Source of the DNA: Phycisphaeraceae bacterium
GTDB taxonomy: Bacteria > Planctomycetota > Phycisphaerae > Phycisphaerales > UBA1924
DNA: 42,315 nucleotides
Direction: 5' to 3'
Assembly: GCA_009827215.1 (NCBI GenBank)
Contig: WUAJ01000002.1
Coordinates: 1-42,315, forward strand
Shown: one piece after another, positions 7,371 through 13,662 of the stretch
Numbering within the stretch: the first letter of the stretch is position 1
Layout: each line of letters opens with the position of its first letter
Notes under the pieces: model-generated
Seen by the model: only the letters and a program-made list of their open reading frames with translations
Databases searched by the model: none
Told to the model about the DNA's origin: nothing
Program-made: the position numbers and the translations under genes

Positions 7371-7402
7371 GAATGATTGGGATTTGTTGATTGTTTGATA
7401 AG

Positions 7403-7425
7403 CCCGCTTCCTGAGCGGGTTTTTT
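7403..7425 (+). terminator. Rho-independent terminator
   Basis: CCCGCT-TCCTG-AGCGGG + TTTTTT. Confidence 0.8.
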
Positions 7426-7496
7426 CTTGTGATTGGGGAAAGTACCTATTAGGATAGCGTGGTCTGATAACTTTGAATGAAAGGACGCTCGTGGTG

Positions 7497-8357
7497 ATGA
7501 ATAGAGAAAATAGAGGGACGCTATTGGCGCTTGGGGCACTTGCATTTGGTTCGTTTCACGGCTCGGCGCTTGGCGCTGAGATTCTTCCTGAATCGCGGGA
7601 CTCGATGCTGATGGTTACGTTTGCGAATCTTGGATACACAGCGGGGTACGAGGGCGACGGTGCGGACCCGATCTTGCTCAGCAGTGATGCGCTGGATTCG
7701 GAAGACGACTTCCTTGTGTTCGATGACATGTTCTATGGGCCGGATGGGTTTGATCGGATCAACACGGGGAGTTTCACGGCTGAGCAGGATGTGACCTTTG
7801 AGCCGGGGTTGATGGGGTTCGACTTCTCGGCGTTTGCGACGGTTTCGGGGGATGCGAATCCGCTGATCACGATCGACAACGACATGTTCGTCTACTTCGC
7901 GGTCAGCGAGGACACGAGCGCGACGCTGACGGTTGAGTACGACGGCGATACCAATGTTGGTGATGACGCGGTGGGGTGTCGATTGCGTGAGGTTGGGCCT
8001 GGGAGTGATCCGGTTGTTCTGGACACGCTGTTTAATCTCGGCGCGTTCCCCGATGGGCCGGGCATGATTGAGATGGAAGTGGACTTGATCGCGGGCAAGC
8101 GGTACCGCTTCTATGTCGACAGTCACGCGCGGAGCTTGGTCACGGTTGGCGCAAACGAGAGCTCGATCAATGTGACGCTGGCGCTGCCTTGTCCGGCGGA
8201 CTTTACTGGAGAGGGCGACCTGAACTTTCTTGATGTCAGCGCGTTTCTTGAAGCGTACGGCAATATGGATCCGAGCGCGGACTTTGAGGAGGACGGAAAC
8301 TTCAATTTCCTCGATGTGAGCGCGTTCCTCGCGGCGTACGCGGATGGATGCCCATAA
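7497..8357 (+). CDS. Secreted protein with C-terminal dockerin-like (GC-type) domain
   Basis: Signal peptide-like N-terminus; ends CPADFTGEGDLNFLDVSAFLEAYGNMDPSADFEEDGNFNFLDVSAFLAAYADGCP. Confidence 0.8.
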   Translation: MNRENRGTLLALGALAFGSFHGSALGAEILPESRDSMLMVTFANLGYTAGYEGDGADPILLSSDALDSEDDFLVFDDMFYGPDGFDRINTGSFTAEQDVTFEPGLMGFDFSAFATVSGDANPLITIDNDMFVYFAVSEDTSATLTVEYDGDTNVGDDAVGCRLREVGPGSDPVVLDTLFNLGAFPDGPGMIEMEVDLIAGKRYRFYVDSHARSLVTVGANESSINVTLALPCPADFTGEGDLNFLDVSAFLEAYGNMDPSADFEEDGNFNFLDVSAFLAAYADGCP

Positions 8358-8414
8358 CTGATCGGCAGTGCGCTGAGTCTGCGCGCATGAATGAATACAT
8401 GCAAGGAGATACGA

Positions 8415-9710
8415 ATGCAGACTCAGATGGTGTTGTTCAGCGCTTTGCTTTCATCCTTCATGGCTGGCTCGGTGGCATACGGACAAGCGTGTGATCCGAT
8501 GGGTGTGTTCCTTCCTGAGGTTCGGACGCAGATGGGGAGTGCGCCGGAGGATATCGCGGCGGCGGACTTTGATGAGGATGGGGATCTGGATCTGGTGATT
8601 GCTGGGGTCACGCTCGGGACTCGATTCTTCCAGGTGATGCTCAACAACGGGGACGGGAGCTTCGCGGCTCCGATAGAGTTTCCGCTCATGAGCAATCCGT
8701 TCTGTGTGGTGGTCGCAGATATGAACAACGACTCGCACATGGATGTCATTGTCGGGCACGGATCAAACCCTGATGTGTCGATCGCGCTGGGGGACGGCAT
8801 GGGAGGGTTCGCGCCAGCGGTGCAGCACAGCGCTGGAGGGTTCGCGACGATCAGTGATCTGGTAGTCGGCGACTGGGACGGCGATGGGTTCAATGATGTC
8901 GCGGTGGTGGTCAACGGTAATCACATCCGCACGCTGCAGGGTGACGGCGCTGGTGGGCTTGGGCCTCAGACATCCAAGCTGACCTTTGGGGTGACGATCG
9001 CGCTGGCGGTTGCGGACCTCAACGCGGACGGCGATCCGGATCTAGTGCTTGGTGATCAGAACGGCGAGGTCAAAGTGCTGTACGGGATCGCGGGTGATGA
9101 CTTCGCGGTCCAGACTGGTGTGGATGTTGATGTGCTTGTGCAGCATCTTGATCTTGCGGACATGGATAACGATGGGGATCTCGATGTGGTGGTGTCGGGG
9201 TTGCTGCCATCTGAGATAGTGGTAGTCGAGAACACGGGCGGAGGCGTGATGACGCTTGGTCCGCGTCAGAGCATCGCGATTGTTCCGCAAGGAGTCGCGA
9301 CGGCAGATTTCGATGCGGACGGGAACAACGATGTGATCGTGGCGTTGTCGAATACCAATGCGCTGGCGCTGATGCGCGGGAATGGTGATCTGACGCTCAA
9401 TGCACAGGTCAACTACGGCGCTGGATTCGACAACCTGAGGGTCGTCGCGGGTGATCTGGACGGCAACGGATCAGCGGATGTTGCGTGCGCTTCGGGGAAT
9501 GGTTTGTCCGTGTCGGTGCTGCTCAATGCGTGCTCGGCGGGATGTCCGGCAGATCTGACTGGGGAGGGTGATCTGAACTTCCTCGATGTCAGCGCGTTCC
9601 TTGCGGCGTACGCGAGCATGGATCCGAGCGCGGACTTTGAACCTGATGGGATGTTCAACTTCCTGGATGTAAGCGCATTCCTCGCGGCGTTCGCGGCGGG
9701 GTGTCCATGA
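8415..9710 (+). CDS. FG-GAP/VCBS-repeat secreted protein with C-terminal dockerin-like domain
   Basis: About seven FG-GAP-type repeats (e.g. AADFDEDGDLDLVIAG, VADMNNDSHMDVIVGHG, VGDWDGDGFNDVAVVV, LADMDNDGDLDVVVSG); RBS AAGGAG; tail CPADLTGEGDLNFLDVSAFLAAYASMDPSADFEPDGMFNFLDVSAFLAAFAAGCP. Confidence 0.85.
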   Translation: MQTQMVLFSALLSSFMAGSVAYGQACDPMGVFLPEVRTQMGSAPEDIAAADFDEDGDLDLVIAGVTLGTRFFQVMLNNGDGSFAAPIEFPLMSNPFCVVVADMNNDSHMDVIVGHGSNPDVSIALGDGMGGFAPAVQHSAGGFATISDLVVGDWDGDGFNDVAVVVNGNHIRTLQGDGAGGLGPQTSKLTFGVTIALAVADLNADGDPDLVLGDQNGEVKVLYGIAGDDFAVQTGVDVDVLVQHLDLADMDNDGDLDVVVSGLLPSEIVVVENTGGGVMTLGPRQSIAIVPQGVATADFDADGNNDVIVALSNTNALALMRGNGDLTLNAQVNYGAGFDNLRVVAGDLDGNGSADVACASGNGLSVSVLLNACSAGCPADLTGEGDLNFLDVSAFLAAYASMDPSADFEPDGMFNFLDVSAFLAAFAAGCP

Positions 9711-9740
9711 ACTTGTAAGTCTACATGAATCTCAGGAAAG

Positions 9741-9762
9741 CCCGCTTCTGAGCGGGTTTTTG
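9741..9762 (+). terminator. Rho-independent terminator
   Basis: CCCGCT-TCTG-AGCGGG + TTTTT. Confidence 0.8.
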
Positions 9763-9838
9763 CTTGGTGTGCTTGGATCGCTGTGGTAGGATGAGTGCCG
9801 CTTGAGGGGGTCGGGTGTGGGGAGATGGAGATTTGTGT

Positions 9839-10882
9839 ATGTTACGAGATGTAGTTGGACCCGCTGTGGGTGTCTTTATTGGACTCGCTTCTGGCGCGGT
9901 GTCGGCGCAGGATGTGTTGCTGATCCCTGATTCGTCGGCGGACTCGGTGTGGGTGTTTGATGCGTTTGATGGTTCGCTCATCGATAACGCGTTCATCACC
10001 GATCCCGGAAGCGACAACGGCGTGGATGTATTTGATCGTCCATTGGAGGTGTTGATTGCATCGGACGGGACGCTGCTGATCACGGATCAGTTTGCCAATG
10101 TCGTGTCTCGCTTTGCCATCGATGGGACCTTCATCGAGATCATGTCGCTCGGCGGGGTGGAAGACACAAACATCATGAACAACATCCGCGGCGGTCATGT
10201 GCTCACCAGTGGTCCCGACGCGGGGGATGTGCTCGTGACGAACTCCGGCGCGTTCAATGATCTGGTGGTTTCACAGAAGAATGTGAAGCGACTGGATCCG
10301 AGTGATGGTTCTGAGCTGACTGACTTCGCGTTCAATCGCTACGGCGGGATCCGCGGGCCGTTTGATGCGTTGGAGTACAACGGCGAGGTCCTTGTCGCGG
10401 ATGAGGGACAGGACAAGATCGTGCGTTACACGCTCGAGGGAAAGTTCAACGAGCGGTTTACGAGTGCACTCGCTGTGCCTCAGCTTGATTTCCCTCAGCA
10501 GATGGCGATCGCGAGTAACGGAAATCTGCTTGTATGTGCGTTCAGCAGCGGATTCATTCTGGAGTTTGATTCCAGCGGATCGCTCGTGGGTCAGTACGAT
10601 CCCGGCACGCTTGAGTTGTATCGCGGGATTGTGGAGCTCGGGAATGGGAACCTGCTTGTCACCACAACAAGCGGTGTGTTTGAGGTCACTCGGACGGGAT
10701 TGGTCGTCGAGACTGAAGCGGCGGGCGATGGATTCCGCTACATCACGAAAGTCGGATCCGTGATTCTCCCTCGGCGTGCGCCAGAGGAGTCAACAGACGA
10801 TGTCGTCGCGAAACCCGATCTGCGGGATCGGGATGAGATCATGCGTGATGAGCGCGGACTTTCGAAGGGAGGCTCGCGATGA
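9839..10882 (+). CDS. Secreted NHL/beta-propeller-like protein without dockerin tail
   Basis: Signal-like N-terminus ...GLASGAVSAQ; repeated DxxGxxV/L beta-propeller-type segments (GTLLITDQFANVVSRFAIDGTFIE, GEVLVADEGQDKIVRYTLEGKF); ATGA overlap with next gene. Confidence 0.65.
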   Translation: MLRDVVGPAVGVFIGLASGAVSAQDVLLIPDSSADSVWVFDAFDGSLIDNAFITDPGSDNGVDVFDRPLEVLIASDGTLLITDQFANVVSRFAIDGTFIEIMSLGGVEDTNIMNNIRGGHVLTSGPDAGDVLVTNSGAFNDLVVSQKNVKRLDPSDGSELTDFAFNRYGGIRGPFDALEYNGEVLVADEGQDKIVRYTLEGKFNERFTSALAVPQLDFPQQMAIASNGNLLVCAFSSGFILEFDSSGSLVGQYDPGTLELYRGIVELGNGNLLVTTTSGVFEVTRTGLVVETEAAGDGFRYITKVGSVILPRRAPEESTDDVVAKPDLRDRDEIMRDERGLSKGGSR

Positions 10883-11904
10883 AGCTTGCAGAGATTGGTT
10901 TGATCGGATTGTCTGCTGGATTGGTTTCGGGATCGGCTCACGCTGGGACGGCGACGCACGCGTACATCATCGAGGGTTCCGGATTCTTCGGTGCGCCGGG
11001 GATTGAGCTAGCGCAGGTGGGTCGCGTGAATCTGTCAGATCCCAGCGATGTGGTGCGGACTCCGATGGCTGGGGATCTGCTCCGCTTTGGCGGAGGGGAC
11101 ATGAACGCTTCGGGTGAGGTCATCGGGTTTGAGAATACGACCAACGCACTGCGCACTGTCGATGTCATGAGCGGCGGGAACACGCTGATCGACTCGATCG
11201 GGTTTATGGACTCTGGAGTCGCCGGGATGACACTGACCAACGATGGATCGACAGCCATCGTGGTTGGGACTGTGGGCGCGTTCTCGCGCTTCGTGCTCGC
11301 GGACGCGGCGACTGGTGCCGTGCAGAGCGTGCACAACATTCTCAACTTCGATGCGATCGGTTCGATCGCTGTGGTTCCTGAGGGGCACCCTTCGTTGATG
11401 CCTGGTGATTTGTACGGCTTGGCGCTGACCTCCGGCGGGAGCGTGCGCTTGGTGCAGATTGATCTGAGCGCCAACACAATCACCACGGTGCATACCTTGT
11501 TCGGTGTTGGGTTCAGCGCCCAGTTTGAGACGGGCTTGGACTTTGCGAGTGACGGCACGCTCTATGGGATGATCCAGGGATTTGACGAGATCGCGCCGGA
11601 TCAGTTCGTGGAGATCTCCAGTCACTTGTACACGATCGATACCACGACCGGAGCGCTCAACCTCCTCGGCGTGGTCGAAGCGGATGGCACATGGGACGCG
11701 GTCACGCTCGTGATTGACGAAGCGCCGGATACTTCGTGTCCCGCGGATCTCACTGGTGAGGGCGACCTGAACTTCCTCGATGTCTCCGCGTTCCTCGCGG
11801 CGTACGGGAACATGGATCCCATCGCGGACTTTGAAGCGGATGGGAGCTTCAACTTCCTTGATGTGAGTGCATACCTCTCGGCGTACAGCGCTGGGTGTCC
11901 TTGA
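10879..11904 (+). CDS. Secreted propeller-like protein with C-terminal dockerin-like domain
   Basis: RBS GGAGG; signal peptide; tail CPADLTGEGDLNFLDVSAFLAAYGNMDPIADFEADGSFNFLDVSAYLSAYSAGCP. Confidence 0.8.
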   Translation: MKLAEIGLIGLSAGLVSGSAHAGTATHAYIIEGSGFFGAPGIELAQVGRVNLSDPSDVVRTPMAGDLLRFGGGDMNASGEVIGFENTTNALRTVDVMSGGNTLIDSIGFMDSGVAGMTLTNDGSTAIVVGTVGAFSRFVLADAATGAVQSVHNILNFDAIGSIAVVPEGHPSLMPGDLYGLALTSGGSVRLVQIDLSANTITTVHTLFGVGFSAQFETGLDFASDGTLYGMIQGFDEIAPDQFVEISSHLYTIDTTTGALNLLGVVEADGTWDAVTLVIDEAPDTSCPADLTGEGDLNFLDVSAFLAAYGNMDPIADFEADGSFNFLDVSAYLSAYSAGCP

Positions 11905-11927
11905 TTGGGAATACATCAGTTTTTGAG

Positions 11928-11955
11928 CCTCGCATCAATGATGCGGGGTTTTTTT
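11928..11955 (+). terminator. Rho-independent terminator
   Basis: CCTCGCATC-AAT-GATGCGGGG + T7. Confidence 0.8.
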
Positions 11956-12034
11956 CATGCCTCTGATACCGTGGACACGGCACATGCAACGCGGTTGGGT
12001 TCGATGCACCTGATTGGATAGAAAGGACATCACT

Positions 12035-13603
12035 ATGAACAGTCGGCAACGGATCATTGAGGGTTTAAATCAAGGGATTGGTGCGGCTTTGTGCGTTGTT
12101 GTGTGTTTGAGCTGTTTCGTGAACGGAGCGAGCGCGGATTGGCCGAGCGGGGTAGGGACTTCGGTTGAGGCGGGGCCGATCAATAACTTTATTGGCGGCG
12201 AGCACGCGATGGTTTCGGGTCATGACGGTTCTGTGTGGGTTTCATGGCAGGACAGTTTCTGTGTCGGACAACTGCGCGTGCAGCGTGTTGGGTTTGGGGG
12301 TGATCTGCTGGTCCCGATGGGGATCGCGGCGCAGGATGATCCGACTTGTGGTTTCTTTCTGCCTCCGAGCATGACTGTTGTTGGGGATGAGCTTGTGGTG
12401 AGTAGGGCGCTGGCGTCGGTTCCTGATTCTCCTGTGCTGCGATTCGATGAGATCGGCGCGGCTGTTTGGGGTGATGGGTACGCGGGTGAAGAGGGCGTGG
12501 TCCAAGGATTGGGTCAGCTGGTCACGCTGTCCAATGGCGATGTGCTTGTGGTCACAAGCAGCGGCGGATCGATCCTGGCGCAGCGCGTTGGCGCTGATGG
12601 GAAGTCGGTCTGGGATGAGCAGGCGGTGGTGGTCGATGGGATCACCTCGAACCATCGCGTGTTCTCCGTCGTCGCGGATCAGAGCGGTGGCGCGATCGTG
12701 TTCTGGGATATCCATCTCGCGTACACCAAGCTGATCTTTGCGATGCGGATCAACGCGCAGGGTGAGCGGGTCTGGGACGAGACGCTGCGGATCGTTGAAG
12801 CGCCTCCGGGCGTAGCAAGCTCGCGGCACAGCGATCCGGTCGCGGTCAGTGACGGCGCGGACGGCGCGGTGGTGGTCTTTGCGAAGGGGTTCGAGACCGG
12901 GACGACTCCCGCCCCGCTGCTGATGCAGCGGGTGAACAGCGACGGGACGCTGGCGTTTGATATTGGGGGCGTTCGTGTTTCGGACAGTCTGGATCGTCAG
13001 TTCTTCCCAGAGATTGTGGTTGATCCAGCGACGCGGGATGTGTTTGTGGTGTGGTACGAGGGTCTGATCAATGCGAGCGTTCGCGCTCAGCGGATGGATC
13101 TGCTCGGACAACAACTGTGGGGGAGCGAGGGGGTCGAGGTTCGGGCGCTCTCGCAGGACCTTGCGCGATTTGATGCGGATGTTGTTGATGACGAGCTTTG
13201 GGTCGTGAGCGCGGACCTCGATGAGATCGCGGTGCACGCGTTTGGTGCTGATGGAACCGCGAAGAGCGGCTCGGGATGGAATGTCACGGAAGAAGGTTCG
13301 CAGGGACGCGTCCAGTGCGTCGCGAGTGGCGACGGGGCCGTGGTCGGATGGATCGGCACCAACGAGAACGGCATCGGATCGGTCTTTGTGCAGCGCGTGA
13401 ATGATGGTGGACGCGTCGGGCATCCGGCGTGCAGTGAGGCGGATCTTGTTGAGCCGTTTGGTTCGTTGAACTTCCTGGATGTGAGTGCGTTCTTGAGTGC
13501 GTTTGCGGCTCAGGATTTGTCTGTTGACTTTGAATCCGATGGATCGCTGAACTTCTTGGATGTCTCCGCGTTCTTGTCGATCTTCGGCGCGGGATGTCCG
13601 TGA
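12035..13603 (+). CDS. Secreted propeller-like protein with partially degenerate dockerin-like tail
   Basis: RBS AAAGGA before ATG 12035; repeated blocks with VWDE/FVVWYEG-like strands; tail CSEADLVEPFGSLNFLDVSAFLSAFAAQDLSVDFESDGSLNFLDVSAFLSIFGAGCP. Confidence 0.78.
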   Translation: MNSRQRIIEGLNQGIGAALCVVVCLSCFVNGASADWPSGVGTSVEAGPINNFIGGEHAMVSGHDGSVWVSWQDSFCVGQLRVQRVGFGGDLLVPMGIAAQDDPTCGFFLPPSMTVVGDELVVSRALASVPDSPVLRFDEIGAAVWGDGYAGEEGVVQGLGQLVTLSNGDVLVVTSSGGSILAQRVGADGKSVWDEQAVVVDGITSNHRVFSVVADQSGGAIVFWDIHLAYTKLIFAMRINAQGERVWDETLRIVEAPPGVASSRHSDPVAVSDGADGAVVVFAKGFETGTTPAPLLMQRVNSDGTLAFDIGGVRVSDSLDRQFFPEIVVDPATRDVFVVWYEGLINASVRAQRMDLLGQQLWGSEGVEVRALSQDLARFDADVVDDELWVVSADLDEIAVHAFGADGTAKSGSGWNVTEEGSQGRVQCVASGDGAVVGWIGTNENGIGSVFVQRVNDGGRVGHPACSEADLVEPFGSLNFLDVSAFLSAFAAQDLSVDFESDGSLNFLDVSAFLSIFGAGCP

Positions 13604-13631: not shown

Positions 13632-13662
13632 AAAGAGCCCCGAATGTGCGTCGGGGCTCTTT
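13632..13662. terminator. Bidirectional terminator
   Basis: AAAGAGCCCCGA-ATGTGCG-TCGGGGCTCTTT, 12-bp perfect stem between convergent genes. Confidence 0.85.

Follow-up and report, generated by a model that had tools for sequence, protein, structure and literature searches.

What function unites exported proteins that differ in everything except a short, cysteine-bracketed domain at one end? This question is raised by a gene cluster at positions 7473–13603 of a 42,315-nucleotide stretch (contig C2, WUAJ01000002.1; the window) from a draft genome of a Phycisphaeraceae bacterium (2.59 Mb in 356 contigs, 86% complete). The cluster comprises five successive open reading frames (ORFs) on the + strand, and the products of ORF1, ORF2, ORF4 and ORF5 end in a Cys-bracketed double loop-helix of approximately 55 residues, C-x(~52)-GCP (Table 1). 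A sequence-only reading had noticed that four of the five exported proteins share this tail and had pointed to a named family of GC-type dockerins. Both points were confirmed by the curated profile NF041540 of NCBIfam (dockerin_GC), as all four tails scored above its cutoff in the genome search (41, 49, 44 and 40 bits) and no such tail was found in ORF3 when the window proteins were searched. We consider it probable (ca. 0.62) that the tail is a portable, Ca2+-binding, disulfide-clasped module of the dockerin type, which docks diverse exported proteins on a single receptor that co-evolves with them and cannot be recognised as a cohesin.

The window proteins are ordinary members of a catalogued domain family that is unpublished as far as could be found. 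A full-text literature search yielded no paper using the name dockerin_GC, the few papers pairing dockerins with Phycisphaerae did not describe a GC-type dockerin, and Pfam dockerin models did not match the window proteins at E-values up to 1. The tail motif is not a product of chance, because the genome-wide profile search that had been proposed for counting members identified 73 such domains in the own genome (at least 65 above the NF041540 cutoff), and an exact pattern search gave 13 matches versus none in a reversed control. NF041540 matched nothing in 14 control genomes. The motif described from the letters was correct overall, except that T or N usually occupies loop position 3 here and that ORF5 has a variant first loop of 13 residues (DLVEPFGSLNFLD).

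The scale of the family was considerable. The sister metagenome-assembled genome (MAG) BWSM_120 contained 97 domains, and four members of another genus in the same family contained 128 to at least 150, with about 223 candidates at first look in members of that genus. In a complete genome from a genus other than that of the window (G034), the 2.0 Mb read (60%) encoded 123 GC-dockerin proteins. In the window's family (f1), the number of exported proteins with the domain ranges from scores to about two hundred per genome. Within the order, 124 of 201 sampled genomes were positive for dockerin_GC, including 63 of 68 in f1 and most of family f4, with almost none in families f2, f3 and f94. The own-type motif was found in three Phycisphaerales MAGs.

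The AlphaFold model of the tail, based on 65 natural tails, had a confidence (pLDDT) of 90.9 and consisted of two loop-helix units, so the paired EF-hand loops on which the sequence-only reading depended appear in the predicted structure. In Foldseek, the best match by TM-score was a type II dockerin (2y3n_B, 0.66/0.67), followed by 2ozn_B (0.59), with calmodulins at about 0.3. A profile search likewise returned the dockerins 2y3n_B (6e-5) and 1ohz_B (1e-3), besides EF-hand calcium-binding proteins. The tail is therefore predicted to fold as a dockerin with two loop-helix repeats. Positions 1 and 12 of the putative Ca2+ loops were invariant and position 5 was mostly D or E; these ligands suggest that the domain binds Ca2+. 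The 13-residue first loop of ORF5, of the form DLAEPFGxLNFLD (window 13430–13600), recurred across genera (loci L029, L043, L054, L062 and L064, and G034 g0571) and may bind Ca2+ differently or not at all. A longer loop insert, AGNPDGSPDG, was also recurrent (L009–L011).

In the full-length alignment rows, Cys1 and Cys54 were as invariant as the Ca2+ ligands, and all four window tails had a Cys at the domain start and Gly-Cys at the end. Among 340 domains from six sources, which are related sequences and hence not independent counts, 315 retained both flanking Cys, nine had neither and 16 had one; in five of these 16, a second Cys is present, displaced by a long loop insert. Because the two Cys are retained or lost together, they probably join in a head-to-tail disulfide. 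Optional Cys in G034 behaved in the same manner, with columns 5 and 18 occupied together in 9/9 cases and columns 32 and 45 in 21/21, never alone, as would be expected of disulfides. Classical dockerins possess a non-covalent head-to-tail clasp formed by Tyr5 and Pro66 (PMC4728124), and the Cys pair of GC-dockerins could represent a natural covalent version of it. An internal dockerin_GC-like module in an RHS-repeat protein (L065, ORF residues 282–330) lacked both Cys.

In G034, the domain lay within eight residues of the C-terminus in 117 of 123 proteins. This distribution would suit a secretion or sorting signal, read by an outer-membrane export machine in the manner of the type IX C-terminal domain (CTD) or PEP-CTERM and then removed. 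However, an obligatory C-terminal position, characteristic of both those signals, was not observed: six G034 proteins carry the domain at the N-terminus, directly behind the signal peptide (five are mutually related and alpha/beta-hydrolase-like by eye), and internal copies also occur. A C-terminal signal cannot be N-terminal, whereas a binding module can; thus, the GC-dockerin is a portable binding module and not a C-terminal sorting signal. In addition, its GC(P) end is accompanied by neither a transmembrane segment nor a basic end, and other proteins of the genome seem to carry PEP-CTERM-like ends. These considerations leave the sorting-signal explanation very improbable. Short PEP-CTERM-like C-terminal ends (VPTPGSAMVLGAAGLLAARRRR) were seen on the exported proteins L072:4510–5112 and L072:10553–11209, and because of such ends, a second anchoring route seems to exist beside the GC-dockerin. 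The portability of the module extends to its number of copies. One G034 protein contained two domains, and six proteins from two genera ended in a single repeat with a C start and a GC end (C..DFTGDGNLNFLDVSAFLTLFSAGCP; half-modules).

The cargo was diverse. A signal peptide-like N-terminus was present in nearly all full-length members, and Pfam assigned 49 families among 60 carriers, including FG-GAP, subtilase, M14, reprolysin, M43, GH16, alpha-amylase, MauG, DHOR, GSDH, endonuclease I and lamin-tail. In the window, ORF2 carries FG-GAP repeats, and the cargo of ORF5 is predicted with moderate confidence to be a beta-propeller. The earlier claims that these proteins are exported and that their N-terminal modules differ were therefore well founded, and the tail was not confined genome-wide to isolated genes outside an exported context. 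The related idea of interchangeable cargo on one anchor tail held for the diversity of the cargo; the domain is not strictly a tail, given its N-terminal, internal and half copies. The traits of a cellulosome were not found, as the cargo was mixed rather than mainly plant cell-wall hydrolases and no cohesin scaffoldin was detected. The carriers amount to a general repertoire of the envelope or surface rather than a cellulosome.

One indication of a common binding partner came from a lineage-specific code within the domain. Both repeats of the own-genome tails read N-F-L-D-V-S-A-F-L, whereas those of G034 read T-I-F-D-F-L-A-F-Q. The largest differences between the two sets fell at loop/helix positions 3, 9, 10, 11, 13, 14, 17 and 18 in both repeats alike, and D1, G6, D12 and F16 were unchanged. 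Further codes were NFADLN-VL in genome G270 and NA/DA-DLA-LL-AW in G278 and G251; different codes were seen in five genera. Near-identical repeats in cellulosomal dockerins are taken to mark dual-mode binding. Positions 17 and 18 belong to the set of dockerin specificity determinants. For positions 10 and 11, this role is established (PMC8063739). The G034 motif occurred in 0/212 own-type tails and the own motif in 0/121 G034 tails. Among 19 reciprocal-best cargo pairs between the two lineages (24%–71% identical), no crossed code was found, and the motif of the respective lineage was present in both repeats of 16 own-type and 17 G034 tails. The best pair shared 71% identity in the cargo and only 39% in the tail, and both tails retained the rare EPFG-type first loop despite their different codes, which argues that an ancestral tail was recoded and not replaced.

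Tails that are more alike within than between genomes could alternatively reflect a passive stabilising cap without a partner, in which a disulfide and Ca2+ protect the chain ends and the genus signatures are founder effects of recent tail amplification. A recent burst is contradicted by fourfold-degenerate sites, which were only slightly more alike than random (0.39 versus 0.35, and 0.56 versus 0.51), suggesting that the likeness within a genome results from selection and not from recent copying. Moreover, homologous cargo was already tailed in both lineages, as in the pair sharing the EPFG loop, and the specificity positions were nearly fixed while the other tail positions varied freely. We regard the passive cap as improbable. 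The genome-wide lockstep of the code, which it does not explain, would be accounted for by either a receptor shared by all carriers or pairing between tails.

Searches for the receptor centred on cohesins. The Pfam cohesin family PF00963 was not found in the own genome. Across the order, it was detected in 16 of 201 genomes and in 12 of the 124 dockerin_GC-positive ones, among which only G278 and G426 belonged to f1; the remaining 112 positive genomes, including nearly all of f1, had no detectable cohesin. One candidate explanation is classical pairing with an ordinary cohesin that has diverged past profile detection, a special case of the receptor reading. Family f4 does contain true cohesin-HYR-dockerin-like proteins alongside dockerin_GC domains (L295–L323), and the nearest experimental structure shows a dockerin in complex with a type II cohesin. 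However, a profile trained on f4, which identified 12–13 cohesins in each of two f4 genomes, detected none in nine own-genus genomes or in genera g2 and g3, apart from one marginal match, and nothing in f1 besides a subthreshold match in G278 and the training row G426. The marginal match, in G435, lies in a MauG-like dockerin carrier and was rejected. Furthermore, a profile of planctomycete cohesins found none in the 60% of G034 that was read, hhalign gave no match above 3% probability among 604 G034 proteins, and the dockerin-rich f4 genome G251, a congener of the cohesin-bearing f4 genomes, lacked cohesins. Classical pairing is therefore a possibility to which we give considerably less weight than an even chance.

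Searches beyond cohesins did not yield the receptor either. A BLAST search for a scaffoldin by internal repeats in the 2.0 Mb of G034 found none, although this is a weak test that also missed known FG-GAP repeats. Among exported proteins without a tail, the most conserved one (g0827/L072:10553–11206, 75% identical) is patchily distributed and was rejected as a partner since three dockerin-rich congeners of G034 lack it. Large untailed exported proteins of G034 included tricorn-like peptidases, an LptD-like protein and M14, S9 and M1 enzymes. The sequence-only impression that no cohesin is in view held for the own genome and for most f1 genomes. Tail-tail self-association, in which modules bind each other and knit the exported proteins into a Ca2+-dependent extracellular matrix, would account for the absence of a cohesin or other receptor among the findings. 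The exposed, hydrophobic and twofold-repeated face would suit such binding, half-modules could pair into whole ones, and a lockstep code within a genome would follow as well. Nevertheless, known dockerins function mainly in binding cohesins and not each other, and we consider self-association unlikely.

The receptor-docking reading can be formulated as follows. Carriers would be exported by the Sec pathway, as supported by their signal peptides, and the two loop-helix repeats would fold around Ca2+. The first and last Cys would then close the module head to tail, and the twofold-repeated face formed by positions 9–11, 13–14 and 17–18 would bind one receptor common to all carriers in the cell, thereby holding a diverse set of proteins at the envelope. 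Co-evolution of this receptor with the whole repertoire would give each genus its own code. No cohesin recognised by current profiles would serve as the receptor, which could have a cohesin fold that profiles fail to reach or be of another kind. Several points weigh against this reading: the receptor was not found in the searched genomes; we infer Ca2+ binding, the disulfide and the surface location each indirectly; Foldseek E-values were weak or not significant, as is usual for so small a domain (61 residues); a few members lack one or both flanking Cys; and half-modules with a single repeat conflict with a strict requirement for paired EF-hands. The more specific proposal of cohesin-independent docking, with up to about 200 exported proteins held on one receptor via a halvable, clasped dockerin whose code each genus rewrites in lockstep across the genome, is offered tentatively, at somewhat less than even odds.

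The clasp, the portability, the lineage code and the cohesin-free setting are not described in the literature searched, and they turn the identity of the partner into a testable question. NF041540 itself consists of a name and a profile; the present analysis adds the genus codes and the variants of the domain (N-terminal, double, half and with loop inserts). The type II dockerin of Cel48 from Pseudobacteroides (Bacteroides) cellulosolvens (2y3n) has the same predicted fold, two near-identical loop-helix repeats and specificity at positions 10 and 11. In contrast, the GC-dockerin is shorter and Cys-bracketed, a bracket missing from the 2y3n family as described, and occurs in genomes without a recognisable cohesin. 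A cohesin/dockerin "planctosome" has been proposed for freshwater Nemodlikiaceae, in which peptidases and lamin-tail proteins bear dockerins and cellulose is not degraded (PMC6461901). That proposal likewise concerns Planctomycetes, and the f4 cohesin-HYR-dockerin proteins resemble its adaptors; however, it depends on cohesins, of which the window's family has none detectable. The 222 dockerin proteins of Ruminococcus flavefaciens FD-1 were called unprecedented (PMC2930009), and the number per genome here is comparable, with three relatives reaching at least 150. Several groups of dockerins and cohesin scaffoldins occur in FD-1, whereas one code dominates a genome here and no cohesin is seen. 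If the receptor reading is true, bacteria whose dockerin repertoire ranks among the largest recorded use a so far undescribed kind of receptor. The search for it is now well posed, as it should be common within a genus, covary with the code at positions 9–18, and occur in f1 and f4 while being mostly missing from f2 and f3. Clasped modules of 55 (or 28) residues that are specific to a genus could also serve as orthogonal plug-and-socket tags.

Table 1. Features of the tail-bearing cluster (window coordinates) and carriers of half-modules (locus or gene identifiers).
Feature	Position	Strand	Description
Terminator-like hairpin 5' of ORF1	7400–7422	+	Consensus only
ORF1	7497–8357	+	Exported, 286 aa, GC-dockerin tail; cargo without Pfam match
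GC-dockerin tail of ORF1, CPADFTGEGDLNFLDVSAFL...GCP	8190–8354	+	NF041540, 41.2 bits (cutoff 29)
ORF2	8415–9710	+	Exported FG-GAP beta-propeller with tail; Pfam FG-GAP_3 (7e-41); NF041540
GC-dockerin tail of ORF2	9543–9707	+	NF041540, 49.2 bits; source of the AlphaFold model (pLDDT 90.9)
Terminator-like hairpin, ORF2/ORF3 gap	9731–9760	+	Consensus only
ORF3	9815–10882	+	Exported, NHL/SGL-like; cluster member, not a tail carrier
ORF4	10879–11904	+	Exported with tail; start overlaps the ORF3 stop
GC-dockerin tail of ORF4	11737–11901	+	NF041540, 44.1 bits
Terminator-like hairpin, ORF4/ORF5 gap	11925–11951	+	Consensus only
ORF5	12035–13603	+	Exported predicted beta-propeller with tail; ORF opens at TTG 12014
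GC-dockerin tail of ORF5	13430–13600	+	NF041540, 39.7 bits; 13-residue EPFG-type first loop
Terminator-like hairpin 3' of ORF5, bidirectional	13632–13662	.	Consensus only
Half-module carriers	L048:1987–2724, L071:1706–2464; G034 g0514, g0825, g0326, g0246

The cluster is flanked by an lpd-like gene on one side and a transketolase-like gene on the other. Because terminator-like hairpins occur in the ORF2/ORF3 and ORF4/ORF5 gaps and at both ends, it is probably organised as three transcription units rather than one operon. No Rfam family was found in the window. An alternative upstream ATG at 8391 is possible for ORF2. ORF3 partly resembles the PEP-CTERM protein ScyF (NHL type), yet it has neither the tail nor PEP-CTERM. 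In the sister MAG locus L187, where the ORF2 ortholog was 90% identical, ORF2–5 were syntenic; in locus L193, ORF3–5 were. The cargo of ORF1 had no homolog among the fetched loci, L187 included, and this gene looks like a recent gain.

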